Below are positions 6,388 through 24,983 of a stretch of DNA of 24,983 bases, one piece after another (the first letter of the stretch is position 1; every line of letters begins with the position of its first letter). The notes beneath the pieces were generated by a model. It was not told the origin of the DNA and did no database searches. It saw nothing but the letters and a program-made list of their open reading frames with translations. The translations under genes and the position numbers were made by a program. Origin of the DNA: a virus; IMG/VR virus record IMGVR_UViG_3300040946_000098, positions 1 through 24,983 of that record; one strand, written 5' to 3'.

Positions 6388-8025
6388 TCACGACGGCACA
6401 AAAACCATGCTCGATTCCCTACGCCTGCCCACCCGCATCTCCCTCGCCACTTCCCTTCCCACTTCATCGTAAAGCTCCTCGGTGACTAGGTAGCGCGCCG
6501 CGTCGAACGGATGCTTGGCCGGGCTTCCCGGCTGAATCAGCCGCGTGCCTGTCTTTGGCTTCCGTAGCACCTTGTTGGCCTCGACCAGCTTCGGGCAGTT
6601 CGCCGCCGAGAAGTACATCCGCTCCTCGAACAAAAGCCGGTTCCACAGGTCGATCCCGGGCGCGAGACTGCCCGGGGAGCGATCCGCCGCCACGAGCACG
6701 ATCTTGAGACTCTCCGGGAACTCGCCCCGCTTGATCCACATCACGGAGGTAACGTAGATGAGTTGCGAAAGGAGCATGAGGCTGCGTTGCTCCAGGCGCT
6801 CGAAAACGCTCCGGTCGGACCAATGCCGCCACTTCACCCGGTTGACCCGGTTCAGGTGGACTTCCCATTTCAGCATTTTCTTCATAAACTCGTACACGAA
6901 ATCCTCAATGCGGTGCGGTTCACCGGTGATGACTTCTTCGTCCAGGAACTTGATGACGGGCACGCGAATCACGGTCTCCTCGCCGTCTTCGTGTTTCACC
7001 GTTTCCGTGACGCGGGATACCTTTTCGGCAATGACGGCGGCCGAGTTCACGGAGTCGCCCGGGTCCCAGCCGCAGATTAGCTCGGCGCAGGTGTCCAGGG
7101 GCAGAAGCGTTTCGGGCTCGTGTACGGCGGGGGTTGGAGTGTCCCCGATAACGTGGATGGTCTGGCGGAAGGTCTCCGCAAAGAGAGAGTTCTCCGTGGT
7201 CCGGGTCGGTTCGCCCAGGATGTATCGCTTGTACAGGTCCTGGTTGTGGGCGTACTTGGCTTTGAGGAGGGCGACGTGTTTCAAATCGGCCCAGGGGTTG
7301 TCTTCCAGGAAGAAGTCCAGCCGGTAGAGGTTATGCTTCAACTCCAGCAGGGCGTCCATGGCTTCCGGGTCTTCCGGGTCAAAGCCCCAGTCGGAGGGAT
7401 TCAGGGCGGCTTCGTCGGCGTCGTGGAGATCCCACCATAGGTCGTGAATCCACCAGCAGGTATCGTCCGGCGGGTTGCCATCCGCAAGGAAAAGGTGTTT
7501 GTTCTCCGGCAGTCCCACCATGCGAAGGCACTCGGTCCAGGTGTCGAACGTCTGCCGCTTCGTGAACGTAGTGACCTCTGGGACGTAGATCATGGAGTAC
7601 CGCCGGGGCTTGAACCTCTCCTCGACTTCATCCTCGACTGCCAGGGATTCGAGCGAAATCTGAGTTTCCCCGCCATCGATATTCGTGATGGCACAGTAGG
7701 GCTTTTTGGTCGTGCCGTTGATGCTGGGCTCCCGGGCCCAGTCGAAGCCGAAATTACCGTCGATCCACTCCGGGATGACGATCTTTGTCAGGTCTTGCCA
7801 CACGCCGGAGTCCATGCCGACGGTCTGCGAGATCGTCACGATGGCGACATTGCCAGGCGTGGTATTCCAGGCGTGCTCAACGAGGGCGTGGAGGCAGCCT
7901 ACGGTCTTGGCTGTGTAGCGCCGTCCGTTGGCGAGGACGTAGCGATACTGCCGGCACGCCTGGCGGAGTTCATCCCGCTTGGGGCAGGTCGTGGGCGACC
8001 AGTTACCATCGGCATCTACGGGCAT
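6388..8025 (-). CDS. terL: Phage terminase large subunit
   Basis: This 545-residue protein has both domains of a DNA-packaging motor. The ATPase part has a Walker A-like NGRRYTAKT at 33-41 with Lys40, a Walker B-like SMIYVPE ending in Glu150, and a coupling-type LADGNP near 180-185. The RNase H-like nuclease part has candidate metal ligands Asp321 (GWDPGDS), Asp404 (HWSDRS) and Asp508 (KHPFDAARY). The length is normal for the family. Two oddities are Ala where Gly usually precedes the Walker A Lys, and Pro where Asp usually precedes the Walker B Glu. ATG at 8025 leaves a short N terminus before Walker A. The gene leads the minus-strand operon and is divergent from the portal arm. No small terminase is recognisable here. 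Confidence 0.92.
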   Translation of the reverse strand: MPVDADGNWSPTTCPKRDELRQACRQYRYVLANGRRYTAKTVGCLHALVEHAWNTTPGNVAIVTISQTVGMDSGVWQDLTKIVIPEWIDGNFGFDWAREPSINGTTKKPYCAITNIDGGETQISLESLAVEDEVEERFKPRRYSMIYVPEVTTFTKRQTFDTWTECLRMVGLPENKHLFLADGNPPDDTCWWIHDLWWDLHDADEAALNPSDWGFDPEDPEAMDALLELKHNLYRLDFFLEDNPWADLKHVALLKAKYAHNQDLYKRYILGEPTRTTENSLFAETFRQTIHVIGDTPTPAVHEPETLLPLDTCAELICGWDPGDSVNSAAVIAEKVSRVTETVKHEDGEETVIRVPVIKFLDEEVITGEPHRIEDFVYEFMKKMLKWEVHLNRVNRVKWRHWSDRSVFERLEQRSLMLLSQLIYVTSVMWIKRGEFPESLKIVLVAADRSPGSLAPGIDLWNRLLFEERMYFSAANCPKLVEANKVLRKPKTGTRLIQPGSPAKHPFDAARYLVTEELYDEVGREVAREMRVGRRRESSMVFVPS

Positions 8026-8856: not shown

Positions 8857-11397
8857 ATGTCCGTTGACATCGACTACCTGAAAAAGCGCGGCGTCTCTTC
8901 GGACGCTTACCGCGGCATCTTCTCAGAAACGCCCGACAAATGGCCCGAAAAGGTCCGCCGGTTGATCAACAATATCTCGGCTCGAATCCGGGACGGGTTG
9001 AACACGGGCGTCGATGAGAAGGTCGCGCGCGCCTACTGCGCCATTGACGCCGCCTATAACATCCCGTACGACCAGACGACCCCGACGCTGGTCAACGACA
9101 TCCTTTCCCGATTCCACGGCCCGGATGACGAGGAGGCGGTGCGCGGTGCCCTGGACGACTGGGGCCTGGGCGATGACAAGCTGTGGATGCGGGTAAAGGG
9201 CGTGGATGGGCACGAACATTGCCTGCCCAACCCGCCGGTATTTTTCAACGTGGTCCCCAATCTGGTTAAGGCGTACACTACGTCCGTCCTGGGCCGCCTT
9301 TTCAACGCCAGGAACAAAAACCCTTTCCTGCAATTCAAGCCCAGCCGCGAGAGCGAGGAGGAGGAGATCCTCTGCAACGCCCTGACCGACCGCATTGACA
9401 AAATCTCCATGAACTATGGTTACGCGGACGTGCTCCGGTGTGCCATAGATCAGATGCTCAAGTACGGCCTGAACCTCACGTTCCCCCGCGAGGAATGGCA
9501 CTGCGAAAATCAGACCGTGACGTGCGAGCCGTACACCGACCCCGCAACCGGAATCGTCCGCACCGAAAAAGACGTGGTGGTAAAGGAGGGCAAGAGGTAC
9601 TTCAACCCGCACCCGACGCGGTTCTACTACGACCTCAAGTACCCGCTGACCAGTTTCAACACCGATACCGGGTGCGAGTTCGCCGGGCATTGGCACGTTT
9701 TGTCCTATGGGCAGATTCTCGACAACGAGGATTACTGGAACCGGGATCATATCTTCGCCGGCACAAACTGGTTCACGGCTCCTCTGAAAAAGTTCTACTG
9801 GACCGAAGTGTTCCCCTGCAAATTGAAATTCCCCGAGGGGTACAAATGGGGTGCGCCTATTCAGCGCGAGGACAAGGCCCAGCTTTACGTCAGTGCCGAC
9901 CGGGACAAGGCGATCTTCGTGGCCGAGCATTACGACAAGATCGTCCCCGCCAACTGGGGCTTGGGCGACTACAATTACCCGGTGTGGCATCGGTTCACCA
10001 TGGCCGGGGACGACACTCCCGTTTTCGTTGAGCCCTGCGCATCGTGCCCCATCACGTTCATGGGGTACGACTACAGCGAGAACAACGACCGGATGCCGTC
10101 CCTAGCCCTGGAGGTCATCCCGTGGCAGGATTGGCTGGGGAACATCCTCTCGCAAATCTTGCTCACGGCGAAGCAAAACCTGGAGCGTGTCATTTTCTAC
10201 GACACGAACCTGGTGAACGCCGACGACATCCGCCGCATGGAGAACATGGGCGAGCAACGGTATCGCGGGATGCACTTCATCGGGATCGACACCATCGCCC
10301 ACCGCATTCCAGGGCTCCAGCAAAGCGGGGCGTTCTTCCCCGTCAACCTGGGCCAGGTCTCGGTTGCCGAGATGTTTTCCACGTTGCAGGTCTTTTTGAA
10401 CATCATGCAGCGCGTGCTCCTCATTGCCGCCCAGGGCACGGGCGCCGCCGGCCCGCATCAGCAGGGCAAGAGCGAGATTGCGATGCTCCAGGCCGCCACC
10501 CAAGACCGGGAACTGCTTCTCGGCTCCGCCGTGGACTCCTACATGGACGCCTGGCAGGTGCAGATTTTCAGCGCCGCCAAGAACTACGCGGACCCCGAGT
10601 TCGAGGCCGAGGTGGACGCCCACACGCCGGGCCTTGAGGAAGCGGTGAAGAAGATCGGTTTCGAGCTGGTACGGAAGGGCAAGACCAAAGCCGTGGTCAA
10701 GGGCAACTGGAAGAAGATCGGGCTCCGGGATTTCGCCAGGACCGCGGAGGGCGACAAGGTCGACGCGGACAAGGAATCGGGGCAGGCCATGATGAACGTC
10801 ATCGGGATTATCGGCAGCCACCCGGATCTGTACGCCGACGTGGGCAAGGAGAACATCAAGCTCATGATCGAGTTTGCGGCGCACCTGCTTGGCGCGCCCG
10901 CGGATTTCAGGATTCGACCGGCGGACGAATCGGACAAGAAGCCGGACGAAGTGCCCAAGGAGGTTATCGAGGCGATCAAGGCCGCCCAGACCGCCACGTT
11001 GAAAGATGTCGAGGCGAAGATCGGCAAGCCCGCAGCGCAGGAAGTGGGCCAGATGCAACAGGAGTTCACCCAACTGCAACAGCAGGTCCAGCAACTTGAG
11101 AAGCTGTCGAAGGTGGCTCAGGCATTGGTGGACAAGCGGAACGTCGAGGCGCAAAAGGCGCAGGAGAAAGCCCAGGCCGACGCGCAGGCTGCACAGGCGG
11201 AGCAGGCGCGGAAGAACACCGAGTTGCAGTCCGAGGAGCAGCGCAGAAACGCGGAGGCCGCGGCGCGCATCGCCCGCGAGCAGGCGGAATCCGACGCTCG
11301 GTTGGCCTTGGAACGGCAGCAGGCAGAGGCTCGGATCGAGAATGACCGGCTCGTTGCCCAGGCCAAGGCGAATCAGGCCCCGAAGAAAAAGGATTGA
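8857..11397 (+). CDS. Phage portal protein
   Basis: This is an 846-residue protein in the position and size range of a large podovirus-type portal, the dodecameric ring through which DNA enters the head. The N-terminal half is mixed alpha/beta with segments such as NPPVFFNVVPNLVKAYTTSV and the central PSLALEVIPWQDWLGNILSQ. A Gln/Ala/Glu-rich coiled coil occupies the last 120 or so residues (QQEFTQLQQQVQQLEKL onward) and would form the portal barrel or crown. ATG at 8857 follows the previous stop by five bases. The call rests on size, context, the coiled-coil tail and overall resemblance to portals, not on a search. Confidence 0.82.
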   Translation: MSVDIDYLKKRGVSSDAYRGIFSETPDKWPEKVRRLINNISARIRDGLNTGVDEKVARAYCAIDAAYNIPYDQTTPTLVNDILSRFHGPDDEEAVRGALDDWGLGDDKLWMRVKGVDGHEHCLPNPPVFFNVVPNLVKAYTTSVLGRLFNARNKNPFLQFKPSRESEEEEILCNALTDRIDKISMNYGYADVLRCAIDQMLKYGLNLTFPREEWHCENQTVTCEPYTDPATGIVRTEKDVVVKEGKRYFNPHPTRFYYDLKYPLTSFNTDTGCEFAGHWHVLSYGQILDNEDYWNRDHIFAGTNWFTAPLKKFYWTEVFPCKLKFPEGYKWGAPIQREDKAQLYVSADRDKAIFVAEHYDKIVPANWGLGDYNYPVWHRFTMAGDDTPVFVEPCASCPITFMGYDYSENNDRMPSLALEVIPWQDWLGNILSQILLTAKQNLERVIFYDTNLVNADDIRRMENMGEQRYRGMHFIGIDTIAHRIPGLQQSGAFFPVNLGQVSVAEMFSTLQVFLNIMQRVLLIAAQGTGAAGPHQQGKSEIAMLQAATQDRELLLGSAVDSYMDAWQVQIFSAAKNYADPEFEAEVDAHTPGLEEAVKKIGFELVRKGKTKAVVKGNWKKIGLRDFARTAEGDKVDADKESGQAMMNVIGIIGSHPDLYADVGKENIKLMIEFAAHLLGAPADFRIRPADESDKKPDEVPKEVIEAIKAAQTATLKDVEAKIGKPAAQEVGQMQQEFTQLQQQVQQLEKLSKVAQALVDKRNVEAQKAQEKAQADAQAAQAEQARKNTELQSEEQRRNAEAAARIAREQAESDARLALERQQAEARIENDRLVAQAKANQAPKKKD

Positions 11398-11907: not shown

Positions 11908-13608
11908 ATGCCCCTCGACAATGACATCCTTGACGCACCCGGCCAGCCGCCCCCGACTTCTCCCGACCCACAGCCGCCCGTAGCCCCGCCCCAACCCGCT
12001 GCTGCCGCACCGCCCCCGGCGGCAGCGGGTGCGTCGGGCGCCGCCGCGCAGCCTCCTGCCCCGCCCAAAGAGTTCACGCCCGAAGAAGGCAAGGGCCTGA
12101 ACGAATTGCTTGGCGAGTTCCTGGAGCCGACGCCAGGAGAGAAGGCCAAGGCGGAGAAAGAAGCGGCAGCCGCCGCAGCCGCATCGGGCGAGCCCGGCGC
12201 GCAGTCGGGTTCCCCCGCACCCGCAGGCACCCCACCTGCCAAGCCCAAGACGCCAAAGAAGAAGCCCGCAATGACTCCGCCGTCCGCCGCCGCCCCACCC
12301 GCGCCGGCCTTGACCGCTACCGACATCGCCACAGCCACCGCCGAGGCCGTGGCCCGGGTGATGAAACCCGCCGCACCCCCGCAACCGGAAGGCCCCAAGC
12401 TCGACGAGGACGACGAGTACACCTTCAAGGTGTACGAGCACCTGGAGACGATTGACCCGAAGCGCAAGGGGACCGCCGAACGATTCAAAGCCGCGCAACT
12501 CAAGGCATACGCGTATCAAGACAAATGGGAAACCGAGAACCCCGGCCAGGAGTTCGACCCGGACGCCGAGGAACACGCCGCCTGGCGCGCCGCCAACGAG
12601 TACGATTCCTTCCCGCCCGACCGGGAGTTCCGCAAAGCCGAAGTGGACATGGAAGTTCAGCAAAGGCTCGAGAAAGAACGGGAACGGCTTGAGGCGAGGC
12701 TAAGTCCATTCGAGCGTGCGCAGAAGCTCCAGGCCGCGCAGCCGGTCATCAACCAGCAAGTCGTTGCGAGTCGGCAAACGTTCTGGAAAGGGCTCGGGGA
12801 TGGATTCCAGGACATCGTGAGCGACGCCGGCGTGCCGGACAAGGCGAAGATCGATGCCGCCCTTGCCGCCGACAAAGAGGCTGCTAAGGCCACGTACACG
12901 GCCGCGCCCGCGCTCTCTGAGGCCATCCTTTCGGGTGAGTTCGCGCCCCCGCCCCTTCCAACCGCGCATCGCCTCGCCGCGGCGCGCGCCCTTGATGCGG
13001 AAGTGCCTGAGATATACGCCCTGATGGAGGAACTCAAGCCCGTGGCGAAACATCCCGGAGCCTACGACCCCGCCTCAGCCCTGCCCGACCCGCAGTTCCC
13101 CGGCCTTAACCCGCTCCAGGCGTGGCAGCGCAAGGTAGGCTTGTTCAATACCCAGCAGGAAATCATCCGCTTTGGGCTCCAGATGCAGCAGGACATCCTG
13201 GCACAGCCGGCCAACGAGCAACTCGACGCCCAGGGGCGTCCTTTCATCTCCGATGACCGTTACTGGAAGCTCCCCAAGCCCGAGCGTGCGCGCTACTGGA
13301 CATTGACCCCGGACCTGGTAATTGCCTACCGAACGAACTATTGGAGGGAAAAAGCGCAGGAAAATATCGCCGCAGACCAGGCGCGGGTGGCCGCTTTTGC
13401 CAAGGCCAAGGGCGTTACCCTGCCCCAGCGTGCCGCCTCGCAGCGCCCAGTGGCGCCCGCGGCAAATGCTCAGGGAACACCCGCAGCCAACGGCAATAAA
13501 CCGCATTCGCCCTCGATCTCCACCCCGTCAAAAGTGGCAGCATCCCGTCAGGCCAATCTTCCGGTGGCCACAGATCCGCTATCTGCTTTTGTCGGCAGCG
13601 ACTTCTGA
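11908..13608 (+). CDS. Scaffold-like head assembly protein
   Basis: This is a 566-residue protein directly before the capsid gene. Residues 1-165 are extremely rich in Pro and Ala with acidic and basic patches, so likely disordered. Residues about 170-300 are helical and charged, including a coiled coil (MEVQQRLEKERERLEARLSP). A mostly helical middle continues to about 500, and the last 65 residues form another flexible tail ending ATDPLSAFVGSDF. Position, composition and helicity match scaffolding proteins that organise capsid assembly, although the length is greater than usual. No protease motif is visible. ATG at 11908 follows the previous stop as TGA-TTT-ATG. Confidence 0.72.
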   Translation: MPLDNDILDAPGQPPPTSPDPQPPVAPPQPAAAAPPPAAAGASGAAAQPPAPPKEFTPEEGKGLNELLGEFLEPTPGEKAKAEKEAAAAAAASGEPGAQSGSPAPAGTPPAKPKTPKKKPAMTPPSAAAPPAPALTATDIATATAEAVARVMKPAAPPQPEGPKLDEDDEYTFKVYEHLETIDPKRKGTAERFKAAQLKAYAYQDKWETENPGQEFDPDAEEHAAWRAANEYDSFPPDREFRKAEVDMEVQQRLEKERERLEARLSPFERAQKLQAAQPVINQQVVASRQTFWKGLGDGFQDIVSDAGVPDKAKIDAALAADKEAAKATYTAAPALSEAILSGEFAPPPLPTAHRLAAARALDAEVPEIYALMEELKPVAKHPGAYDPASALPDPQFPGLNPLQAWQRKVGLFNTQQEIIRFGLQMQQDILAQPANEQLDAQGRPFISDDRYWKLPKPERARYWTLTPDLVIAYRTNYWREKAQENIAADQARVAAFAKAKGVTLPQRAASQRPVAPAANAQGTPAANGNKPHSPSISTPSKVAASRQANLPVATDPLSAFVGSDF

Positions 13609-13740
13609 GCGATAACCGTAGCAGTAAGGCTTGAGACGCCACTGCGCGGTTAATCGTTTGCAGCAGCATTCAAGGTCGGGCCTGTTGCCCGACCGCCCGC
13701 CTTGGGGCACCGCAAGCCGTATTTTAACCAATACGATCTT
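13609..13740 (+). promoter_or_regulatory. Structured leader of the capsid gene
   Basis: This 132-base gap is the longest between plus-strand genes. A perfect 8-bp hairpin, GGTCGGGC (13674-13681) and GCCCGACC (13687-13694), has a 5-base loop and no T tract. A second perfect 6-bp inverted repeat, CGTATT (13718-13723) and AATACG (13730-13735), flanks TTAACC and ends five bases before the capsid ATG. Together they suggest message stabilisation or control of initiation for the most highly needed virion protein. No clear promoter is visible. Confidence 0.5.
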
Positions 13741-15816
13741 ATGGCACTGTCTGCCCCCGATGCCCCGGTAGCGTTCCAAATGAACCCCAACGCATTTGCG
13801 AAATGCGCGCCGGCGGTCTCCACGAACATCCGCGAGTGTGGTACGGTCACGCTCTGCAACATGAAGCCGATGACGGCAAACGACCTGACCAACGTTTACC
13901 TCAAATCATCGCAGTTCCGGGTCATCAAGGACATGCTCAAGCACGAGATCGAGTTGAAGATGTGCGCGCCGGTCCAGAACGGGCTGTGGGACTTCCTGAT
14001 GGCCAACAAGGTCGACGTCAGCCGGAAGATCCAGACCGGCGGCGAGAACGGCTCCGGGCTCTTGGAGATCAAGCCGTTCATCCTAGCCAAGCGGTATCAC
14101 CCCATCAACAACGAGTGGTGGATCATCACCCAGGGCCAGCAGGACACCGGCAACTCCAGCGGCTTCGGCACGAACACCTGGATCTGCCAGGTCACGTCCT
14201 CGACCAATATCCCCGCCGACGTGCGCAGTTTTCCGCCTGACATGTACGTCTTTGCCGAGGGTGTTTCCTCCGGGGGCACTGCCACCAGGACCGCCTGGAA
14301 GGTCATCAACAGCGTGGTCAACACCGCCGGGAACTACATCACGCTTTATCTGGAGGACATGAACTCCGGTTCGCACCTGCCCGCTTCCAAGCTCGGCGCG
14401 CCCGTGTCCGGCCTGATGATGCGCGGCACGAACAACAAGCACGACGCCGAAGCCTGGTGCGCCGAGGGTCCGGCCTACCGGAACTGGACGAAGTTCCCGT
14501 TCTTCTTCCAGACCTGGCGCCGGAGCTTCTGCTGGAGCGAGCACTACCACAAGTGGCGGAAGTACGCTCTCCAGAACGACCTCTACAGGGAGTTCTTCGA
14601 TCTGGACGAAACCGAGCGCAACAAGCAGTTGGCCGCGGATGACCGGCGGCAATTCTGCCAGATGTTCTTCCGCAACCCGCCCATTTCCAACTTCCAGACC
14701 TACTACGACTTCGACAAGCTCGACCCGATCCCGAGTTTTGACCCCGCCGACATTGGCCTTGAGGGGCTGGGCGTTGACGGTGGCCGATGCGTCGGTTACC
14801 GGGCCAATGCGACCGGCTTCTACGATCAGATGTCCGAATGCGGCCGAGTCTGGGATATGCAGGGCTCCACGCCCTACATCTCCGACCTGGCGATCCTCCT
14901 GTACAACATGATGCGGGTGAAGGAAGGCCGCGGGCATCCCAAGCCCAAGGTTTTTGACCTGTTCACCGATTCGATCTCCGCTTACTGGCTCAACACCGCG
15001 TTCCTGGCCTACTACAAGGCCCAGGGGCAGGGCATGGTCCAGATCCACGTCGAGGCCGGCAAGTTCTCGGACGAAAAGGAGGCCCAGTTCGGCTTCCGGT
15101 ACAAGACGTTCCAATTCTTCTGGCCGCAAGGCGTCACGATCAACGTCATCACGCACGAATATTTCGACGACTGGATGACCGCTACCCAAGCCGCCGTCAC
15201 TGCGGGCGCCAACTCCGCGTTCGCCAACACTAGCCGGGTGTGGTGGATCATCGATTGGACGACGACCTACCCTGGGATCATCGCTTCCAACCGGGTGATC
15301 AACAAGTCGGGTGACCTCAAGACGCTGGCCGCCATCGATCCCAAGGGCTACGGCTGCACGATGAAGGTCTTCACCCAGGAGCAAACGTTGATCTCCACAA
15401 CCTATTGCGTTGTGGTGGATTGCCCGGGCGCGAACGCGGTCATCGAAAACATCGGCCCGACCAACGGCTACCTCACCGGACGAAGCGGCAATCCCGACGC
15501 GGGGGCCAACACCTACGCCGGCATGTGCGTGCCCGACCCAAGCTCCGCACCGCTGGATACCTTCGGCACTGTGGGCGGCGGCGCGACCACGACCACGACC
15601 ACCAGCACGGTTGCGGTGTATGCCAACACGCAGCAGAGTGCGACGTGGACGAATCGAGTCGGTGCCACCCAGACGGTCTATATCCCCGCCGGGACGTTCC
15701 ATTCCTCGCAATCGCAGACGGTGGCCAACAACATGGCCCTGGACGCCGCGAGCGCCGAGGCCGAGCAACTGGCCGCTTTGGACGTTGCACCTGAGCAGAC
15801 TCAGGTTGGCCCGTAA
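13741..15816 (+). CDS. Major capsid protein with C-terminal DUF5977-like extension
   Basis: From ATG at 13741 this encodes 691 residues. The frame is open upstream from a TTG at 13702, but the ATG fits the local start pattern (CTT-ATG). The call rests on position after the scaffold, size, an alpha/beta composition without low complexity up to about residue 610, the following terminator, and general resemblance to capsid proteins of large podovirus-like phages. After about residue 615 a Thr-rich linker (ATTTTTTSTVAV) leads into a module (VYIPAGTFHSSQSQTVANN, then an Ala/Glu-rich helix) matching modules in two other virion proteins. This extension probably projects from the capsid surface. I cannot confirm an HK97 fold by eye. 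Confidence 0.78.
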   Translation: MALSAPDAPVAFQMNPNAFAKCAPAVSTNIRECGTVTLCNMKPMTANDLTNVYLKSSQFRVIKDMLKHEIELKMCAPVQNGLWDFLMANKVDVSRKIQTGGENGSGLLEIKPFILAKRYHPINNEWWIITQGQQDTGNSSGFGTNTWICQVTSSTNIPADVRSFPPDMYVFAEGVSSGGTATRTAWKVINSVVNTAGNYITLYLEDMNSGSHLPASKLGAPVSGLMMRGTNNKHDAEAWCAEGPAYRNWTKFPFFFQTWRRSFCWSEHYHKWRKYALQNDLYREFFDLDETERNKQLAADDRRQFCQMFFRNPPISNFQTYYDFDKLDPIPSFDPADIGLEGLGVDGGRCVGYRANATGFYDQMSECGRVWDMQGSTPYISDLAILLYNMMRVKEGRGHPKPKVFDLFTDSISAYWLNTAFLAYYKAQGQGMVQIHVEAGKFSDEKEAQFGFRYKTFQFFWPQGVTINVITHEYFDDWMTATQAAVTAGANSAFANTSRVWWIIDWTTTYPGIIASNRVINKSGDLKTLAAIDPKGYGCTMKVFTQEQTLISTTYCVVVDCPGANAVIENIGPTNGYLTGRSGNPDAGANTYAGMCVPDPSSAPLDTFGTVGGGATTTTTTSTVAVYANTQQSATWTNRVGATQTVYIPAGTFHSSQSQTVANNMALDAASAEAEQLAALDVAPEQTQVGP

Positions 15817-15897: not shown

Positions 15898-16593
15898 ATG
15901 TCAAACTCAGCAGTAGCGGAGCCGGCACCCGCTCAAGCCCCGGCACAAACATCAGCACCAAAACCCCCAACCCCACGCGCGTACGTTTACTTCGCCAAGC
16001 AACTGCCCAATATCCCAGTAATCGCTGGCGGCGGCAAAGTCGGCTGGGAGGTCCTGGACGGTCAGCAGGGTCGGGCGCGGTTCAACCTTGCGACCGACGC
16101 GGCTGTCATCAAGGATCTGCGCGCGCTCGCGGCCAGGAACTCGGGCGGTGTCACCGAAATCTCGGAGGCGCAGTACGAAGACCTAAAAAAAAACCATCCA
16201 TACCGGCCCACGGTGAGACAAAGCGAAATACAACCTATTCCCTCGCGAGTCGACTTCCTACCAAAGCCAATAAAAAGAGGGGCACCTGCTGCGGCGGTTA
16301 AGGCTGTGGCCGAATCTGCCGGCGTGCCCGTTACGACCGTGCCTAAACCCTCTGTGACGCCACCGCCAGGCCCGGCGCCCGAAACGCCGCCAGCCATGGG
16401 GATGCCGTCATTCAACCCGACCGGAGGCGGAATCCAAGCCGCCTTGCCCCCGGCCCCGTCCAGCCCGCCATGGCATCCCCCAACCGAAAATCCCGAATCC
16501 ACGGTTGTCAACGCGGGCAGGCCGACGGTGGGGAGAATCAGGACTGCGGCGCCGGCCAAGGGCAAGGCCCCCGGGCCCAGCCCTGGAAAGTGA
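15898..16593 (+). CDS. Pro-rich head or connector-region protein of unknown function
   Basis: This is a 231-residue protein. After a Pro/Ala-rich start, residues about 27-105 look folded (YVYFAKQLPNIPVIAGGGKV, then RFNLATDAAVIKDLRALAAR and ISEAQYEDLKKN). The remainder is a long Pro/Ala/Thr-rich disordered tail. There is no signal peptide or membrane segment. It lies just after the capsid terminator and ends three bases before the next gene, so it belongs with head completion or connector genes by context. I do not recognise a family. Confidence 0.75.
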   Translation: MSNSAVAEPAPAQAPAQTSAPKPPTPRAYVYFAKQLPNIPVIAGGGKVGWEVLDGQQGRARFNLATDAAVIKDLRALAARNSGGVTEISEAQYEDLKKNHPYRPTVRQSEIQPIPSRVDFLPKPIKRGAPAAAVKAVAESAGVPVTTVPKPSVTPPPGPAPETPPAMGMPSFNPTGGGIQAALPPAPSSPPWHPPTENPESTVVNAGRPTVGRIRTAAPAKGKAPGPSPGK

Positions 16594-16596
16594 CTT

Positions 16597-16788
16597 ATGG
16601 CAGACAGCGTGCCCCTCTACCGGATGCCGGAACCGCCGAAGATGCCCGACGCGGAAGACCCGCGGTGGCTTTTCGTCGGCTCTGGGCGCAGGGAGTTGTG
16701 GGATTTCGTTGCGCCTCCCGCCGTCTCGCCGTGGAAACCCGAAGTTGAATCGCCCGAATCGCGGGAGTACGCGGGCGCGGGAAGGTAA
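16597..16788 (+). CDS. Small protein of unknown function before the adaptor
   Basis: This is a 63-residue protein rich in Pro, Glu, Trp and Arg (for example PEPPKMPDAEDPRWLFVG and ELWDFVAPPAVSPW). It begins three bases after the previous stop (TGA-CTT-ATG) and ends one base before the adaptor ATG (TAA-A-ATG). This tight packing supports it as a real gene. Nothing in the sequence points to a specific role, and a short connector-associated peptide is possible. Confidence 0.65.
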   Translation: MADSVPLYRMPEPPKMPDAEDPRWLFVGSGRRELWDFVAPPAVSPWKPEVESPESREYAGAGR

Positions 16789-16789
16789 A

Positions 16790-18589
16790 ATGTCTTACAC
16801 CTGGGGGCAACTCAAGACCGACGTTCGAGCGATCCTCTTTCCGTCCGGAGAGGCCCCCAACCTCGTCACCCCGCACGACACCGCGTTCCTGCATGGCATC
16901 CTCGATCTCCAGCAGTTCGTCCCGTGTCTCCAGCAGGATCATACGGACGTGGTGCCCGCCTGTTCCAGCTTCTATCGCTGCGGGATTACCATGTTCAACG
17001 CGCCGCGGGGTTTCATCAAGCGTGTCTCGGTAATCGGCTCAGATCCATCCGGCGACCCCGACTACTGCAAGGAGGTCGAGTACCGACAGATTGCGCCCCA
17101 CTACATTCGCGGCTGGCTGCAACGGCATGGCCGCGACGAGCGGAACGGTTTCCTCGATTTACCCGCGTTCTTCGCCTTGGACCCTTGCCTGTGTCGGAAA
17201 GCGATGTTCCCGGTCCCCACCGACAGCGGGCTTCCTGCCGGACTAGCGCCGCTGCAACTGGGCGCTCACTACGCCCAGGGGTCAACAGATCGGCCACGCC
17301 GTTCACGGGCCGGGGTCTGGGCGGTAGAACGCGGTGTTCTTCAACTGGCGCCATGGATCAACGTGGAGAAATGGCCTGAAACTGTACTGATTCTCTGGGA
17401 CGGCATCAAGCGCACCTGGAGCGATTCGGACCCGGTTGACCCCGACCCGTTGCTGGGGGCCGCGCTTGAGGAGTTTGTCAGAGCCGACCATGCCCGGAAG
17501 TTCGACCGGGACTTTGACGTGGCCCAGGCAGCCGAAGCAGCTTACTTCGAGGCTCGGAAGAATCTCTGGCACAACTGCCGCAACGAGACGCGGACGCGGG
17601 AGCGGGAACCCGCCATGGGCCGAAGCTCTGTGGCCACGCTCGAATCCTCCGGCGTGTTGTATTACAACGACACTCCCTACACCGCGAATTACACGGCGAC
17701 AACGGCGGATTGTCCGACGGGCGAGACGGCGGCGCAAAGTTCAAGCGCCAGCTATACGGTTCAGGCGGGGTCCGTTTCCTCGACCGTTTCGGTTGCCGAC
17801 GCGGATACGCAGGCGCAGACATTGGCTCAGAACACGGCCAAAACCAACGCGATTGCCGGCTTGACCTGCACGGGGACACCGACCGGAGGCGGCACCACCA
17901 CGACGCCGGGGACGTACTCGAACCCGGGCGGGAGCAAGGTTGTTGTGACGTGCGCGAGCACGGCTTCCGACGCTGGCGACCCCAACGCGCCAACCCCGAC
18001 TGGGACCTCTGCCACGGGGCAGACAGTGGCTGGTTCAAATACGAGCACGGTTTCTGCGGCGGACGCCGAGTCCCAGGCCGTCAAAACCCTCACGGACAAC
18101 CTGAAGGCCAATCTGATTTGCTGTTACCTGAACTCAACGCAGACCGGCCAGCCGGCTAACTGCACGACCGTCCTGCCCCCCAACCCCGCTATTACTGCGC
18201 CAGCGCAGACGACGCCTGCGGGGACTTCCTCCTGCACCCAATGCGGACCAGCAAGCGCGGCAAGCACACTCCAGACCGCCGCGAACACCGCGGCGATGGC
18301 TGCCGCGAACACCGCCGCCGTCAACCTCCTGCCCGGCCTTGGATGCCCCAGCACGATTCAGGCACCCGGCAACACACAGCAGGGGTACGCCTGCTGGCCG
18401 TCCACGCTTACGGAGCAGACCGGCTTGGTCCAAGTCTGCGTCACCGTGGCGGTTGGCAGCTTCCCCACTAACGCCCTCGCACAGACCTACGCCCAGACAT
18501 TCGCCCAGCAATACTGGTTCTTGGCCGTTAAACTGGGACTCCAGGGCCAGATCAGCCTCACCTACCCCGGCGGCATGAGCCTGCCGTAA
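16790..18589 (+). CDS. Head-tail adaptor fused to DUF5977-like modules
   Basis: From ATG at 16790, one base after the preceding stop, this encodes 599 residues. The frame is open further upstream across the 63-residue gene, but that extension is not supported. Residues 1-280 resemble podovirus-type adaptor or tail-accessory proteins, with MSYTWGQLKTDVRAIL at the start and a helical WPETVLILWDGIKRTW plus EFVRADHARKFDRDFD region. Residues about 288-599 contain several Ala/Asp/Gln modules: AGSVSSTVSVADADTQAQTL, AGSNTSTVSAADAESQAVKT, and two more diverged copies, several ending in Cys. A fusion of an adaptor to surface-type modules is unusual. The adaptor call is from pattern and position. Confidence 0.72.
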   Translation: MSYTWGQLKTDVRAILFPSGEAPNLVTPHDTAFLHGILDLQQFVPCLQQDHTDVVPACSSFYRCGITMFNAPRGFIKRVSVIGSDPSGDPDYCKEVEYRQIAPHYIRGWLQRHGRDERNGFLDLPAFFALDPCLCRKAMFPVPTDSGLPAGLAPLQLGAHYAQGSTDRPRRSRAGVWAVERGVLQLAPWINVEKWPETVLILWDGIKRTWSDSDPVDPDPLLGAALEEFVRADHARKFDRDFDVAQAAEAAYFEARKNLWHNCRNETRTREREPAMGRSSVATLESSGVLYYNDTPYTANYTATTADCPTGETAAQSSSASYTVQAGSVSSTVSVADADTQAQTLAQNTAKTNAIAGLTCTGTPTGGGTTTTPGTYSNPGGSKVVVTCASTASDAGDPNAPTPTGTSATGQTVAGSNTSTVSAADAESQAVKTLTDNLKANLICCYLNSTQTGQPANCTTVLPPNPAITAPAQTTPAGTSSCTQCGPASAASTLQTAANTAAMAAANTAAVNLLPGLGCPSTIQAPGNTQQGYACWPSTLTEQTGLVQVCVTVAVGSFPTNALAQTYAQTFAQQYWFLAVKLGLQGQISLTYPGGMSLP

Positions 18590-18594
18590 CGATT

Positions 18595-20202
18595 ATGCTT
18601 GCCCAGGGTATCATCACCACTTACCCCTGCCAAAACCAGGCGCCGCCGCCAAACCCGCTGTGCTCGGACCCGGCGTACGCCCTAGCTAATCCTGGACTCT
18701 GCTCGCCTCAGCCGCAGTTGATCATCACGCCGTCCATCGCCATCGCCTGCACCTTGGGGAGCGTGCAGTTCAAGGCGTACTTGCAGGACGCCACCGGCCA
18801 GACGGACGTGACCGATCAAACGACGTTCACGACCAAAGACCCCACAGTCGCCGTCATCGGAGTCTCGAGCGGAAACGCGACCGGCACGGGAGCCGGGAGT
18901 GTTCAGATAACCGCCTCCTACCAGGGGATGTCGGCCTTTGCCGAATTAACCGTCATGGCGGGGACGGACTGCTGCTCGGTTCAGACATCGGCTTTCATGA
19001 TCCTCGTCGACGTCACCAAATCCATGTCGGCGGCGTTCGGCGGCTCGTATGCTACCCGACTTGCCTTTGCGGCCGAGGCCGTTCAGACCCTCCTAGAGAA
19101 ACTCCCCGGCAGCGCCCAAGTGGGCCTGATGACGTTTACGGCCGCAGGCCAGACGGTGCTCTCGCAGATCGTCGGCAACAAGACTCTAGTTGAGGATCAG
19201 GTATCCTCGATCGTACAGACCCAAGCCACGACTGGATTTACCGCCGCGCTCCAGGCTGGGGTTACCGCCCTGAACTCGGCCATTGCCGACCAGAAGATCC
19301 TCGTCTTGATCTCGGACGGCGAAGACGAGACGGCAGACGAGTTCACCGCGGGAGCCGATCCAATTCTGGTTACGGAGGCTTTCCAGGCCGACGGCGGCAT
19401 CGTCATGTGCCTTGGCGTGCGGGCTTCCTCGACGGACAATGGCTACCCGATGCTGTCCGACCTCTCGACGGGGGGGTTCTTCCTGAACGCCCTGCCGTCG
19501 AACGCGGACGCGGTGCTGGGATTCTTCACTGGGCTTCTGGGCTATATCTGCTGTGGCGACTGCACTCCTGAAGGTGACGTGGTTGTCGGCGTCGGCGCAC
19601 TGAACTTCAACGAGTTCCAGCAGTGGAACGTGAGCGGCGGGAACGTGGATCTTATCGGGAACGGCTTCTTCGATTACCTGCCCGGCAACGGGCTCTACGT
19701 GGACCTCGGGGGCACATCCACGCCCCATAACGGGGTTTTGACTACGAAGAGCACTTTCCCGGTCGTGGCGGGGCACACGTACACGCTGACACTGACCCTG
19801 GCGGGCAATCAGGTTGACCCCAATGCCGGGGCGGCTGTGACGGCTCTCGTTGTCGGCTCGTCTGGTTCTCTGCTCGATTACATCGTGCTCTCGAACTACG
19901 CCAGCGGGTTCGAGCCCTACAACTGGAGCTTCACGGCGGCGACCACCGACCAGGTTTATATCGTCATCCAGGAAACCGATCTGGGCCCGGGCGGGACATC
20001 GAACTGGCAGCCGCAGGGCCTTCAACCCACAACCTCCAGCATTACTATGATGCAACTTACCGGAAGTCCAGAGGGGGTAGTCACAGCTTCCACCGGGCAG
20101 ATGGGCTGGGACGCCACCCACCTTGCGCTTTGGATTAAGAACACCGCCACAGGCAATACGGGCTGGCAGCCGCTCGTTGTGCTGGGGACGCCCTACTCGT
20201 AA
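18595..20202 (+). CDS. Big2-VWA-DUF642-like tail protein
   Basis: This 535-residue protein has four parts. Residues about 41-122 are a Big2-type Ig-like domain. Residues about 130-318 are a von Willebrand factor A domain with a full metal site: Asp139, Thr141 and Ser143 in DVTKS, Thr216 in TTGFTAAL, and Asp241 in LISDGEDE. Residues about 335-475 resemble DUF642 (NVSGGNVDLIGNG, LYVDLGG, TYTLTLTLAGNQ). The C terminus (GVVTASTGQMGWDATHLALW, then GNTGW) matches a common phage tail-fibre ending. Ten or more Cys residues are present. There is no signal peptide. VWA domains bind ligands through a divalent cation, so host-surface attachment is likely. ATG at 18595 follows TAA-CGATT. Confidence 0.82.
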   Translation: MLAQGIITTYPCQNQAPPPNPLCSDPAYALANPGLCSPQPQLIITPSIAIACTLGSVQFKAYLQDATGQTDVTDQTTFTTKDPTVAVIGVSSGNATGTGAGSVQITASYQGMSAFAELTVMAGTDCCSVQTSAFMILVDVTKSMSAAFGGSYATRLAFAAEAVQTLLEKLPGSAQVGLMTFTAAGQTVLSQIVGNKTLVEDQVSSIVQTQATTGFTAALQAGVTALNSAIADQKILVLISDGEDETADEFTAGADPILVTEAFQADGGIVMCLGVRASSTDNGYPMLSDLSTGGFFLNALPSNADAVLGFFTGLLGYICCGDCTPEGDVVVGVGALNFNEFQQWNVSGGNVDLIGNGFFDYLPGNGLYVDLGGTSTPHNGVLTTKSTFPVVAGHTYTLTLTLAGNQVDPNAGAAVTALVVGSSGSLLDYIVLSNYASGFEPYNWSFTAATTDQVYIVIQETDLGPGGTSNWQPQGLQPTTSSITMMQLTGSPEGVVTASTGQMGWDATHLALWIKNTATGNTGWQPLVVLGTPYS

Positions 20203-20206
20203 TCCC

Positions 20207-23200
20207 ATGAGACTATTCAGAATCATCTTCGCGGCCTGCATAGCCCTGGGCGCTGTTAGCCCGGCGGGGGCGGCTAATCCTCCGATTCAGGCGTTTCCGT
20301 GGACCACGGGGGGTAACATGGCCGGCGGGTCCAACACCACCAGCTACGTTGACGCCGTGCGTGACTTCAACGCGCCGACTAACGGGCTGGTTGACGCCGC
20401 ACCGGCGCTGAACGCAGCCGCGATGGCGGCGGAAGGTGGGACGCTTTATATCTCGAAGGGCCTCTTTCTCATCAACTCGACCCTGCTTGCTGGGAACGTG
20501 ACTATCCGGGGCGACGGCGACTCGACGGTCATTTTTGCCACGAATACTTGGAACTTCCCGACTGCCTATCCGAAGCTCCTGGCGAACAGGTCTTCGTGGG
20601 TGCCCTCTCAAGGCGGATCGCCACCACTGCCTATAGCGTGGAACTCATATCATTGGCTCAACTTCAAACTGGTCAACGCCATCCCGACAAACCTGACCGG
20701 GTGGGCCTTGAGCGGACCGCCTGGCGGTCTTCCGTCCACCGGCACGTCCTCGCCCGATGTCACCATCGGATATTGCCACGACAGCACCATCAGCGGGGTT
20801 CACTTCGTCTCTTCGGCTCCCGGAGCGGGCTCCCAGGTCATCACGATCCAAGGGGCATGTAGCAACCTCACCATTTCGGGGAACCTCCTGGAGAATTTGA
20901 CCTACAATACCAACTACGGAACGGTCCTCATCTGTGACGTGAACCTGGGGACGGCTCTGGCACCAGGCTTCGTGTCCGGGCTTCGCGTCGAGGGCAATAT
21001 CGTCAATCACAGTGCTTGGGATGAAGCGATCATGGTGGCGGCTGGATACAGCGCGGCATACCCCGGACCGACTATAATCACGGACTGGCATGTCCGCCGC
21101 AACGTCATCAATCTGCTGGGCGGGCCAAATTCCAAAGGGATGACCCTCATGGGTGGCTCTGACTATTCGAGCGCGACGGCCTCAACGATGGCCAACGGCG
21201 ATTGCACGGGGAACTATATCTACGCGACTAATACGTGGTATTCCCTCCTACAACTGGGCGGCTGCGGGTCGTTCAGCAACAATGTGATCGCGGACAACGT
21301 GTTGCAGAACTACTCGACAAACCTAAACGCCAACGGGGTGAACGGAATCCACTGCGATTCCGGCTACGCGAACGGCACAGCCATCAAGCTGATCAACAAC
21401 CACATTTGGAACTGGTCGCCCACCAACATGCTGACGGCTTTCGACCGGCTCGGGTCCGGCTTCACTGTGCGCGGGGGCTCGTTGCGCGGCGGGTTCAACA
21501 ACACCAACCTGAACTGCGCTTGCCCGATTTCCATGGTGGAAGTGAGCAACACCTTTATCAGCGGCGTGAGCGCGAACGTGGTTCAGCTTTCATCAGGGCA
21601 AACCATAGGGGGCGTGGCATCGGATGGGCTGAATAATCTGTTCATGGGGACTGGGGCGGGTGCGGCTAATACAAGCGGGCATGACAATTCTTTTTCTGGA
21701 CTCAATTCTGGCCACGCAAACACAACGGGTTATTACGATACCGCCGTCGGAGCAAGCGCCTTGCTTTCTCTTACGACCGGCTTCAATAACACAGCCGAGG
21801 GCCAGGGAGCGGGCGAAAACCTGACAACTGGAGCGAGCGACGTAGCCATTGGGACTCAGGCACTCTTTGCGGATTGGGCAGATAATGGAAACTCGGCGCT
21901 TGGTTATCAGGCGCTTATTGCGCTGACGAACGGGGGCGCGAACACGGCAAGTGGAGACCAAGCGGGTTGGGCTCTCACCAATGGGGCAGGCAATACCCTT
22001 AACGGCAATCGAGCCGGCGCGGGACTCGTCCAAGGCAGTTATAATAGTTACGTTGGAGACCAGTCCGGGCCTCCAAATGGCGCGGGGCGAAGCGAGTCTT
22101 ACGCCTTGGCTTTTGGGTATGGAGCGGATGCCGGAGGAACGGGAAACATCGCCATCGGTGGACCTCAAAACGCAGGTAAGGTCTTTTCCACATCCGCAAT
22201 ATATACTGGGTCTGGTGCTGGGTTGACCAACCTTACCAACTTCGCCCTTGCCGCGGCGGCTGGCGATACGGCGGGCGTTCGAGCGCCCACGCTGGCCGCG
22301 GGTGCATCACTGATAGGAGCGCCGAGCAACCAGGTGATTCGCCTTGGCGCGTTGCTGCCGGCGCAGAGCGCGGAATGCACGATCATGCGGGATACTAATT
22401 CGCTCCTGCTCTCGCTGCCGTCTTCGACTTGGATCGTCAAATGCTGGGGCGACGGAGGCTACTTCGAGTCGGCCACGGGCACTAATGGATGGGTAGGGCC
22501 TTCCAATGACTTCCCGCAAGCGTCTCGCGGGAACGTCCTGCGCGACGCCGCCGGGCTGTATCACCGGTGGAACAATGATTTCGTCAACCAGACCAACATC
22601 TACCACTATACGAGCCCGCAAGGGACGAACTGGACCAAAATCGGCGTGGCGTTCACGACCAATGCGACTTGGAATATGCAGGGGTTGGGGAATATCGGCG
22701 TGATGTGGGACCCGCTGACAAGTAAGTTCCGTGCCCTTCTCGATGGCCTGGGGCTAATCAACGGCGGCGTCTACTGGTCGGTGGGGGAGTACGACAGCAG
22801 CGATGGCGTGAACTGGACACCCTACAGCGGCAACCCAGTCTTGAGCATCCAAGGCAGCGCCTATTGGGAAGCTACGTCCTGCCGGCCATTCTACACGAAT
22901 GGGGCCTATTACACTTTCTGCCAGATCATGCCCTATCAGGCAGCCCTGCCCTCGGAAATCGGCCTCTACAAATCGCCGGACATGGTTCACTGGACGCCGT
23001 GCAATGGCGGCTACCCGGTCATCACCCGGCAGTCTTGGTTTGAGGGGGCGTGGAACAATACCACCATCTACACGACAACGCCGGGCAGCAGTTCGCAGGT
23101 AGCCGACTGCCCTCAGCCGGTGGATATGGGGGGCTGGACCCTCCTGGTGTGGAGTGCGCTGATGGACCAGCGGGCCATTGGACCCAGCCCTGGGTTCGGT

Positions 23201-24064
23201 TATGTGCCGCTTGGTTTATCAAGTTGGTTGGCGAGTCTGTCCGGTCCACCGCCTGGGCTTGAGGTGGCCGGGCCGATTTCCCTGAGCAGGTCGGCTTGGG
23301 GGCGAGGGCTGGACCAGGTTACCAACGTGCAGAATGGCGGGTTGAACATGGTGTCTGACCTTCCCTGGACCATCAAGGGCGGGCTTTCGGTGCAATCGAG
23401 TGGCGGAGGGGTGCCTCTCTATTTGTTCAATTCGAGCGGGACCCAAGTCGGCTATGCGGACAATTCGGGGAACTGGAACATCAACGGTGGCGTGCTGTTT
23501 GACAGTTCCGGCGTGTATTCCGGGACGGCCATGAATGCCAGCGGCTTGCTCCTAGGTTCTGGTCAGAATGCCGTGTTGGGGCTTTTGGGCACGGGGCTCT
23601 TCGCTTATCACACTGGTACTGATGGCAGCGCCGCGCTCACGGTGCAGCAGGATACCGTGGGGTCCGCAGGCCCTCTCCAGGTTTGGCGCGGGACCAATAG
23701 CTTGGCGTATGCTTCGATGGACCAGTTGGGTGATCTGACCCTGAACAGTGTGATCGGGGCCAGCGGCACCCTCACACTGAACAATGGCTCAGGGACGGCG
23801 GTGAGCACGCTCGGCAACCTTCAGGTCGGGGGCACGGCGTTTTTCACGAATAATGTGGCGATCAAGCAGACGCTTACAGTGGGCTCAACGCTCTGGCCCT
23901 CCAACGGTGTCGCCTTCGCCCAGCAATCCTCCACGCCGAACGCGGCAACCATCGGCGGCGTCTCAGGCAGCGTCACAAACCATCTACTTCTCAACCGCAA
24001 CGGACTCCTGATCGACTTTTGGAGCGATGGAACCACGGTCTATTCAAAGCAACTCGCACCCTGA
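20207..24064 (+). CDS. Multidomain tail spike with signal peptide
   Basis: From ATG at 20207, four bases after the previous stop, this encodes 1285 residues. An upstream extension in frame overlaps the VWA gene and is not supported. Residues 1-23 look like a Sec signal peptide (basic MRLFR, hydrophobic IIFAACIALGAV, then SPAGA). Residues about 45-460 begin like pectate-lyase-3 proteins (RDFNAPTNGLVDAAPALNAA) and continue as a parallel beta-helix. Residues 477-629 are YadA-head-like repeats, followed by GSGAGLTNL. Residues about 765-1005 resemble a GH43/GH32-type five-bladed propeller (YTSPQGTNWTKIG, KSPDMVHWTPC). The C terminus ends NGLLIDFWSDGTTVYSKQLA. I infer a receptor-binding and possibly polysaccharide-degrading spike. 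Confidence 0.82.
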   Translation: MRLFRIIFAACIALGAVSPAGAANPPIQAFPWTTGGNMAGGSNTTSYVDAVRDFNAPTNGLVDAAPALNAAAMAAEGGTLYISKGLFLINSTLLAGNVTIRGDGDSTVIFATNTWNFPTAYPKLLANRSSWVPSQGGSPPLPIAWNSYHWLNFKLVNAIPTNLTGWALSGPPGGLPSTGTSSPDVTIGYCHDSTISGVHFVSSAPGAGSQVITIQGACSNLTISGNLLENLTYNTNYGTVLICDVNLGTALAPGFVSGLRVEGNIVNHSAWDEAIMVAAGYSAAYPGPTIITDWHVRRNVINLLGGPNSKGMTLMGGSDYSSATASTMANGDCTGNYIYATNTWYSLLQLGGCGSFSNNVIADNVLQNYSTNLNANGVNGIHCDSGYANGTAIKLINNHIWNWSPTNMLTAFDRLGSGFTVRGGSLRGGFNNTNLNCACPISMVEVSNTFISGVSANVVQLSSGQTIGGVASDGLNNLFMGTGAGAANTSGHDNSFSGLNSGHANTTGYYDTAVGASALLSLTTGFNNTAEGQGAGENLTTGASDVAIGTQALFADWADNGNSALGYQALIALTNGGANTASGDQAGWALTNGAGNTLNGNRAGAGLVQGSYNSYVGDQSGPPNGAGRSESYALAFGYGADAGGTGNIAIGGPQNAGKVFSTSAIYTGSGAGLTNLTNFALAAAAGDTAGVRAPTLAAGASLIGAPSNQVIRLGALLPAQSAECTIMRDTNSLLLSLPSSTWIVKCWGDGGYFESATGTNGWVGPSNDFPQASRGNVLRDAAGLYHRWNNDFVNQTNIYHYTSPQGTNWTKIGVAFTTNATWNMQGLGNIGVMWDPLTSKFRALLDGLGLINGGVYWSVGEYDSSDGVNWTPYSGNPVLSIQGSAYWEATSCRPFYTNGAYYTFCQIMPYQAALPSEIGLYKSPDMVHWTPCNGGYPVITRQSWFEGAWNNTTIYTTTPGSSSQVADCPQPVDMGGWTLLVWSALMDQRAIGPSPGFGYVPLGLSSWLASLSGPPPGLEVAGPISLSRSAWGRGLDQVTNVQNGGLNMVSDLPWTIKGGLSVQSSGGGVPLYLFNSSGTQVGYADNSGNWNINGGVLFDSSGVYSGTAMNASGLLLGSGQNAVLGLLGTGLFAYHTGTDGSAALTVQQDTVGSAGPLQVWRGTNSLAYASMDQLGDLTLNSVIGASGTLTLNNGSGTAVSTLGNLQVGGTAFFTNNVAIKQTLTVGSTLWPSNGVAFAQQSSTPNAATIGGVSGSVTNHLLLNRNGLLIDFWSDGTTVYSKQLAP
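21635..22093 (+). repeat. Nine 17-residue YadA-head-like repeats
   Basis: Residues 477-629 of the spike divide into nine 17-residue (51-bp) units with the pattern N-x3-G-x2-(A/S)-G-x3-T-x-G-x2, for example NTAEGQGAGENLTTGAS and NSALGYQALIALTNGGA. The last unit is the most diverged. Left-handed beta-roll repeats of this type form trimeric stalks or heads in YadA-type adhesins. The nucleotide copies have diverged, so the array is not a recent expansion. Confidence 0.85.
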
Positions 24065-24072
24065 TTTGATTT

Positions 24073-24983
24073 ATGAGAAAACTTTTCACTTCCCTGATGG
24101 CTGTGGCGGCGCTGTGCCTGTCGCTGGCGACGGCGCGCGCGGCGGTCAACCCGGTCAACATGTTCGGCAGCCTGGGTTGCACCAATCTGACCGTCTCGAA
24201 CAGCATTGTCATGGTGGACATGAGCACGATGATTCCTTATACGACGATGTGGATTGCGCCTGGTGGCGGTGTCGTGTTTGGGGTGAATTTCTTTGGTGTG
24301 GAGGGGTGGCTGGGCGCGGGCGGAACTCTCTACGCCAGCAACGGCGTGGTTGCGGTCGGCGGCAGCGTGGCCGGGCTCTCGGCGTTGACCAATGCTGCGG
24401 GCTATGCCGTGGCGGGCCTTAACGACACCACCAACGCGGCGACAAAAGCGGCGGCGAACAGCACTAACATTCTGGGCGCATCAGCCTACAGTAGCACTAC
24501 CCCTTTACAGGCAACCAACGGCCTCACCCCGTCCGCTTTTGCGCCCGCCAATACCTTTGCAACCAACACAGGGGTGGGCATCGCCTACGCGGCGGCGCAA
24601 ACACCGGCCTTTACGTCATTCACCAATGGTCTCTCAGGGGGGACGAATTGGTCGGCCATTGCCGGGACCAACGCAGGCCGGATCTTTGCGTGGAATGGCA
24701 TATTCGAGGCTGGGCCAGTCCGGGAGGTTGGGGAGTTTCGAGCTTATGGGACTGCGGGTATTGGGACGCTGTTTGAACTGGCTACCCTCCTGGGCTCTAC
24801 GGCAACCTCCACCGATCCCGATAGCACCCATGGTTCATCCGACACCTACACGACTGCGGCGACAGTCGGCAAGACGAATGGGTTCTTCGGGAATAACTGG
24901 TACTACCCTGGCCGCAACGGCTACTGGAGCCTCCTGGTAACTATCTGTACGAATGGTGCCTATTACTTTGTCGGCGCCAGTTC
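24073..24983 (+). CDS. Second signal-peptide tail protein, cut by right edge
   Basis: ATG at 24073 opens a frame that continues to the window end with no stop, giving at least 303 residues. Residues 1-23 form a clear Sec signal peptide (MRKLF, hydrophobic LMAVAALCLSLA, then ATARA). The rest is Gly/Ser/Thr/Asn-rich and beta-structured, with CTNLTVSNSIVMVDMSTM, AGLSALTNAAGYAVAGL and a C-terminal part reading FFGNNWYYPGRNGYWSLL. The style matches the spike before it and fibre-like proteins of Verrucomicrobiota-type genomes. It follows that gene by eight bases (TGATTTGATTT-ATG). I infer a second fibre or spike subunit. Confidence 0.8.
   Translation, partial: MRKLFTSLMAVAALCLSLATARAAVNPVNMFGSLGCTNLTVSNSIVMVDMSTMIPYTTMWIAPGGGVVFGVNFFGVEGWLGAGGTLYASNGVVAVGGSVAGLSALTNAAGYAVAGLNDTTNAATKAAANSTNILGASAYSSTTPLQATNGLTPSAFAPANTFATNTGVGIAYAAAQTPAFTSFTNGLSGGTNWSAIAGTNAGRIFAWNGIFEAGPVREVGEFRAYGTAGIGTLFELATLLGSTATSTDPDSTHGSSDTYTTAATVGKTNGFFGNNWYYPGRNGYWSLLVTICTNGAYYFVGAS

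Follow-up and report, generated by a model that had tools for sequence, protein, structure and literature searches.

Tail assembly in tailed phages is generally regarded as completed within the cytoplasm. Trimeric autotransporter adhesins of the YadA type have a signal peptide, YadA-like head repeats and a C-terminal YadA anchor.

Two described systems bring export and phage-like proteins together. WceF of Pantoea stewartii is presented as a secreted, phage-tailspike-like trimer of right-handed beta-helices with a cleavable signal (PMC7949094). Porphyromonas gingivalis phages of the proposed Nixviridae are described as encoding Sec-signal proteins adapted to the +1 Gln rule of the host (PMC10367356), +1 Gln being given elsewhere as the Bacteroidetes Q-rule (PMC5837995). 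In metagenome annotation, the absence of a signal peptide has been taken, in one account, as support for phage origin (PMC6199706).

Here we analyse a viral locus where two consecutive genes in a virion structural block, spike 1 and spike 2, encode proteins with predicted Sec signal peptides. The window, by which we mean the whole stretch of DNA analysed (24,983 bases), is a single IMG/VR virus record taken whole.

Gene layout of the window

The window is a metagenomic fragment from a tailed, probably short-tailed phage, and its contig end truncates spike 2. The spike genes sit right after a VWA gene and downstream of the portal-, scaffold- and capsid-like genes:

6388..8025, minus strand: terminase large subunit, terL (phrog_2, 5.6e-10)
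8857..11397, plus strand: portal-like protein, by homology and gene order; it matched no curated portal family
11908..13608, plus strand: scaffold-like protein, by position and homology
13702..15816, plus strand: major-capsid-like protein, by position and homology
16505..18589, plus strand: adaptor-like structural protein, at the G17_596 position of relatives (ORF as listed, true start uncertain)
18595..20202, plus strand: VWA + DUF642 protein, signal-free and conserved in the near clade; alternative candidate for the virion fibre
20207..24064, plus strand: spike 1, 1285 aa, with signal peptide, post-cleavage tag, possible beta-helix region, YadA-like repeats and fibre-like C-terminal part
20207..20272, plus strand: predicted Sec leader of spike 1, 22 aa long, with the cut following AGA (rule score 5.27)
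20273..20311, plus strand: post-cleavage tag of spike 1, ANPPIQAFPWTTG, in a form common to other signal-bearing spikes of the family
21620..22270, plus strand: spike 1 segment with YadA-like repeats, roughly residues 472-688, GC3 low (phrog_4636 match, tblastn, GC3)
24073..24983, plus strand: spike 2, 303 aa seen, ending with the contig; no family
24073..24141, plus strand: predicted Sec leader of spike 2, 23 aa up to ATARA, or 21 aa by the rule (rule score 5.22)

No Shine-Dalgarno sequence is recognisable at 10 of 13 window gene starts examined, both spikes among them. Several structural proteins (13702-15816, 16505-18589 and 2175-4028) seem to share a short DUF5977-like segment. The signs of it are a PF19404 match of the capsid-like protein at E 0.0018, under the family cut-off, and local matches to G017 proteins.

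At the start of the window, a DUF6745 protein that contains many short repeats in a row (3-1878) adjoins a small conserved protein, g1543. DUF6745 matches occur in 15 viral loci, and 9 of these 15 also hold g1543 matches. The portal and spike 1 were sought in the records of the 15 loci and not found, the DUF6745/g1543 module alone being common; the pair is perhaps a mobile accessory module.

Signal peptides of the two spikes

The original prediction held that both spike genes start with Sec signal peptides, and rule-based scoring agrees. Spike 1 begins, from the ATG at 20207 (upstream stop at 20202), with MRLFRIIFAACIALGAVSPAGA^ANPP, and spike 2, from the ATG at 24073, with MRKLFTSLMAVAALCLSLATARA^AVNP, the caret marking the cut; in spike 2 the rule places the cut two residues earlier. 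The rule, which is not SignalP and was applied to genes called as longest ORFs, looks for positive charge in the n-region, a 9-residue h-region, the -3/-1 residues and no membrane helix following. Its yardstick was one annotated region of E. coli K-12. There, all 12 Sec proteins passed, as did 1 of 6 inner-membrane proteins; the 23 cytosolic proteins and the single Tat protein all failed.

Both spikes show the n-, h- and c-regions and the -3/-1 cleavage site of predicted Sec/signal peptidase I substrates. Their scores, 5.27 and 5.22, are like those of OmpF (5.37) and OmpA (5.05), and when residues 2-60 were shuffled the observed score was reached in 0 of 5000 draws for spike 1 and 4 of 5000 for spike 2. 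Among the 16 proteins tested of the 18 listed in the window, only the two spikes pass; the other 14 fail. Mechanically, spike 1 could also begin at a TTG, at 20123, and from there the rule still passes with hydrophobic core and cut unchanged. Sec-type signal peptides are thus predicted on both spikes.

Homology and domains

Both proteins had also been called spike-like, a description that matches of the repeat region support for spike 1. Residues 523-688 of spike 1 match the tail spike family phrog_4636 (1.3e-8), and its repeat (about residues 472-652) has tblastn matches in 7 phage records at 33-48% identity. Spike 2 fell into no family in Pfam and PHROG searches, and tblastn in 50,697 phage records gave it no match.

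At E 0.1, Pfam returned 0 families for spike 1, and so found no YadA anchor, no beta-helix and no outer-membrane anchor or sorting domain. Single-sequence AF2 models of its residues 23-470 and 705-1034 reached a pLDDT of 31, too low to judge a fold by; a right-handed beta-helix, as in depolymerases, is possible. A glycosidase-like propeller, suspected by eye in the C-terminal half, found no support. The YadA-like repeat segment (measured over 21617-22270) has a GC3 of 0.54, against 0.71-0.85 in the other genes and segments measured, which suggests that this segment was recently acquired as a domain.

Wider searches were negative within their scope. A PDB sequence search with both spikes gave no match; exact-peptide scans found no close relative in viral contigs (spike 1, spike 2, portal and capsid as queries) and no relative in genome contigs (terL); and tblastn of portal, terL and capsid in the 50,697 phage records gave no match.

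Export-tagged spikes recur in relatives

Relatives were sought by the fibre motif of spike 1, G[SN]GAGLTNL, which occurs in at least 120 loci. True relatives among the motif matches listed are G016 and G017 (portal 39-41% identical, terL 40%) and, distantly, G046. A portal profile matched 48 viral loci and a capsid profile 40. The gene order is conserved, with terL on one strand and portal, scaffold, capsid, g15898, the adaptor-like G17_596 and VWA/G17_940 on the other. A host search with the portal profile matched 1 of 291 genomes of L195's phylum (Armatimonadetes), namely the seed itself.

Export-tagged spikes are not confined to the window, and their positions vary among relatives. First, in G017 the slot of the window spikes, right after G17_940, holds signal ORFs of 1088 and 278 aa in succession. 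The longer combines a P-domain-like stretch with repeats that look YadA-like by eye, and the shorter matches a lectin-type domain right at Pfam's cut-off; past terL there is a second pair, of 553 and 140 aa. Second, L273 has one signal ORF in each of these slots, after VWA/G17_940 and beyond terL, and G061 has four in succession beyond terL; G091 has three successive ones upstream of the terL end. Third, in G094, G095 and G046 signal ORFs lie between the adaptor-like gene and the next structural gene, which in G094 and G095 matches the virion structural protein phrog_3287. In L184, a relative of the non-signal type, the equivalent slot holds a signal-free protein of 623 aa, followed by a phrog_3287 gene. 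In L265, the closest relative, the sole signal ORF at these positions is a partial one beyond terL, with none after its VWA homolog.

Near-clade records (portal identity of at least 35%) have a signal ORF at either end of the block in 12 of 26 cases; the figure is 1 of 17 at 28-35% and 2 of 19 below 28%. The count is of deduplicated records at two positions, before which many records end. The other 14 near-clade records, many truncated, have none at the two positions tested, and some distant records carry signal ORFs elsewhere than at the block ends. Loci in already-counted records and near-duplicates (L157, L164, L165, L174, L267, L271, L280, L295 and L297) were dropped, L155 was kept over G062/G063, and L195 and L196 were left out. 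The position test misses spike 1, since the longest ORF there extends into the VWA gene, and the window is counted through spike 2.

Two other features of these relatives were seen. One 1721-aa signal-bearing ORF of G046 (L143:9798-14963) is laid out like a polymorphic toxin, with RHS repeats and with C39 peptidase and Tox-SHH nuclease domains. The near-whole G061, G059, G066, G077, G091 and G095 each have a single giant protein, some 3,000-3,800 aa long.

Controls and cleavage-site statistics

None of 282 family hallmark genes (head, neck, packaging) has a signal. Non-hallmark family ORFs of at least 100 aa pass the rule in 47 of 463 cases near the hallmark block and in 12 of 369 farther away (Fisher p 1e-4), with all G061 ORFs counted as near because the hallmark block there wraps the contig ends. 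Control phages, the 7 records matched by the spike 1 repeat, have a signal on 0/11 fibre-type or virion proteins, and 2/101 ORFs of at least 100 aa in the same stretches pass. Of the motif ORFs among the matches listed, 93 start within the locus, and 34 of these bear a signal; counted by distinct N-termini, the figure is 14 of 45.

Apart from barring proline, the rule takes no account of the +1 residue. Yet, of the 57 distinct signal proteins in the family, 19 have Gln at +1 (background 3.1%, p 4e-15) and 12 have Ala (background 9.0%, p 0.004). Since so strong a bias falls on a residue that the rule does not see, cleavage of the family signal peptides is, judged from sequence, probably real. 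In the window itself, spike 1 has Ala at +1, and spike 2 has Ala there or, with the cut that the rule prefers, Arg; neither follows the Bacteroidetes Q-rule. A tag, [FYWILVA]TT[NG] within 22 residues past the cut, occurs in 10 of the 57, spike 1 included (null mean 1.17, maximum 5 in 2000 draws), a statistic that overstates its weight because the motif was picked after looking. Spike 2 has neither the post-cleavage tag nor a homolog.

Signal fibres in unrelated phages

On the unrelated contig L086, a head-tail adaptor (phrog_211), a head-closure protein (phrog_460) and a sheath stabiliser (phrog_227) are followed by a signal fibre. Directly past its signal this fibre has a canonical fibre N-terminus, and the same segment opens non-signal fibres in seven other loci. 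The L115-type signal fibre matches four tail-fibre PHROGs, and two small ORFs near it have weaker matches to L-shaped tail fibre assembly. Homologs starting downstream of the signal, which had been named beforehand as refuting evidence, do exist elsewhere, for the mature N-termini of L086 and L083, but none was found for spikes 1 and 2.

A wider claim can be put tentatively, with the odds leaning against it: in several unrelated tailed-phage lineages, receptor-binding spikes may be completed outside the cytoplasm, being exported by Sec, cut by host signal peptidase so that an N-terminal docking tag is exposed, and loaded in the periplasm or during lysis.

Discussion

We propose that spikes 1 and 2 are fibre- or spike-type proteins that would be exported by Sec, cut and used outside the cytoplasm, the likeliest use being to dock on virions at lysis. 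On the sequence evidence, we put the probability of this reading at roughly 0.45. The spikes would be synthesised as Sec precursors; host Sec would export them, and signal peptidase I would take off the leader, baring a short N-terminal tag in spike 1 only. They would then fold, and presumably trimerise, beyond the inner membrane and gather most likely in the periplasm, where they would stay until lysis because they have no recognised outer-membrane anchor. As the envelope breaks, docking on virions would be the likeliest fate, with action on surface glycans close behind; thus, we rank use at or after lysis first, and within it virion loading slightly above free action. Export, cleavage, periplasmic residence and virion loading are all steps that we infer.

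Cleavage-site selection at the family level, observed directly like the predicted signals, their absence from the other structural genes, the recurrence and the non-signal controls, supports the export of a surface-acting protein, and the fibre-module context together with the post-cleavage tag suggests use as a fibre. Such export and an unusual assembly route, two of the explanations first offered, are thus both still plausible. Three relatives, G059, G057 and G065, have non-signal structural proteins that end in the P-domain-like stretch found in the G017 signal spike. Several points count against the proposal. Signal ORFs are missing at the two positions tested in 14 near-clade records and in nearly all of the more distant ones, L265 has only its partial one, positions vary among relatives, and spike 2 has neither tag nor homolog. 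The signal-free VWA/G17_940 protein may be the real virion fibre, and the lytic verrucophage P8625 is reported, in the part of its description bearing on this, to have 0 signal peptides in 52 proteins (PMC4642752).

The best-surviving alternative, nearly as likely as our proposal though more probably wrong than right, is that the spikes are exported and cut but never become virion parts. On this view they would serve as secreted adhesins or as proteins that degrade glycans. Set free or kept at the surface, in infection or in lysogeny, they would change the host surface, loosen slime or keep out superinfecting phages. VWA/G17_940, a distinct signal-free candidate for the fibre in the near clade, fits this; so do the beta-helix, lectin-type or sialidase-like repeat domains on some relatives' signal ORFs, the searches, which turned up no signal-free copy of these spikes, and the precedents, as far as they are described, of the P. 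gingivalis phage Q-rule proteins (PMC10367356) and Pantoea WceF (PMC7949094). However, signal fibres lie within tail-gene modules, in L086 a virion-type N-terminal motif comes after the cut, and sorting or outer-membrane anchor domains were found neither in spike 1 nor in 20 Pfam-scanned signal proteins of relatives.

That same negative result bears on the recent capture of a host adhesin gene, one of the explanations first offered for the signals, which we do not favour. Relatives hold different signal-bearing fibre ORFs in the same slots, and the start context of the spikes, without a Shine-Dalgarno sequence, is that of most other phage genes.

We consider it unlikely that the hydrophobic N-terminus stays uncut, whether it anchors the spike in a hydrophobic tail pocket or merely resembles a signal, with assembly in the cytoplasm as usual. 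Tails of well-studied tailed phages do assemble there, and related fibre types elsewhere are signal-free. But the strong +1 bias (Q, A) and a tag placed just past the cut fit cleavage, and an anchor would need no conjunction of charge, hydrophobic stretch and -3/-1 residues.

Chance or an annotation artefact (a mistaken start codon, host DNA in the contig or a false-positive prediction) is very improbable and largely refuted: the contig is a metagenomic fragment with a truncated spike 2, the TTG at 20123 could mechanically serve as a start and 2/101 control-phage ORFs pass the rule, but the shuffles, the same tandem arrangement in G017, the 0/282 hallmark genes and a pass from either start all speak against it.

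If fibres of some lineages pass through Sec, as our proposal would have it, then tail assembly has an extracytoplasmic step. Otherwise, these phages would have an array of proteins that look like tail fibres but are secreted and act on surfaces. Either outcome would alter the metagenomic annotation of receptor-binding proteins and supply secreted spike-type proteins that bind glycans.

Comparison with known systems

The nearest described proteins on the phage side are fibre-type proteins of CRP-1 and CRP-831 (Roseobacter), HTVC111P and HTVC112P (Pelagibacter) and Venkman (Methylophilales), which share the YadA-like repeat of spike 1. They sit in tail gene modules, a context like that of the spikes; unlike spike 1, none has a signal peptide. 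Trimeric autotransporter adhesins resemble spike 1 in joining a signal to YadA-like repeats, but the YadA membrane anchor was not found in spike 1 (Pfam, E 0.1). WceF differs in being, as described, a bacterial rather than a phage-borne gene with a Tat rather than a Sec signal (PMC7949094), and its beta-helices have a possible counterpart in spike 1. The signal proteins of the P. gingivalis phages come, in the account available, from five genes of unknown function that are not described there as fibres or spikes (PMC10367356). Searches of an open-access library brought up no account of signal peptides as a lineage trait of tail fibres, an absence that is weak evidence. Taken singly, phage spikes, Sec signals, secreted enzymes of the tailspike fold and secreted phage proteins are already known.
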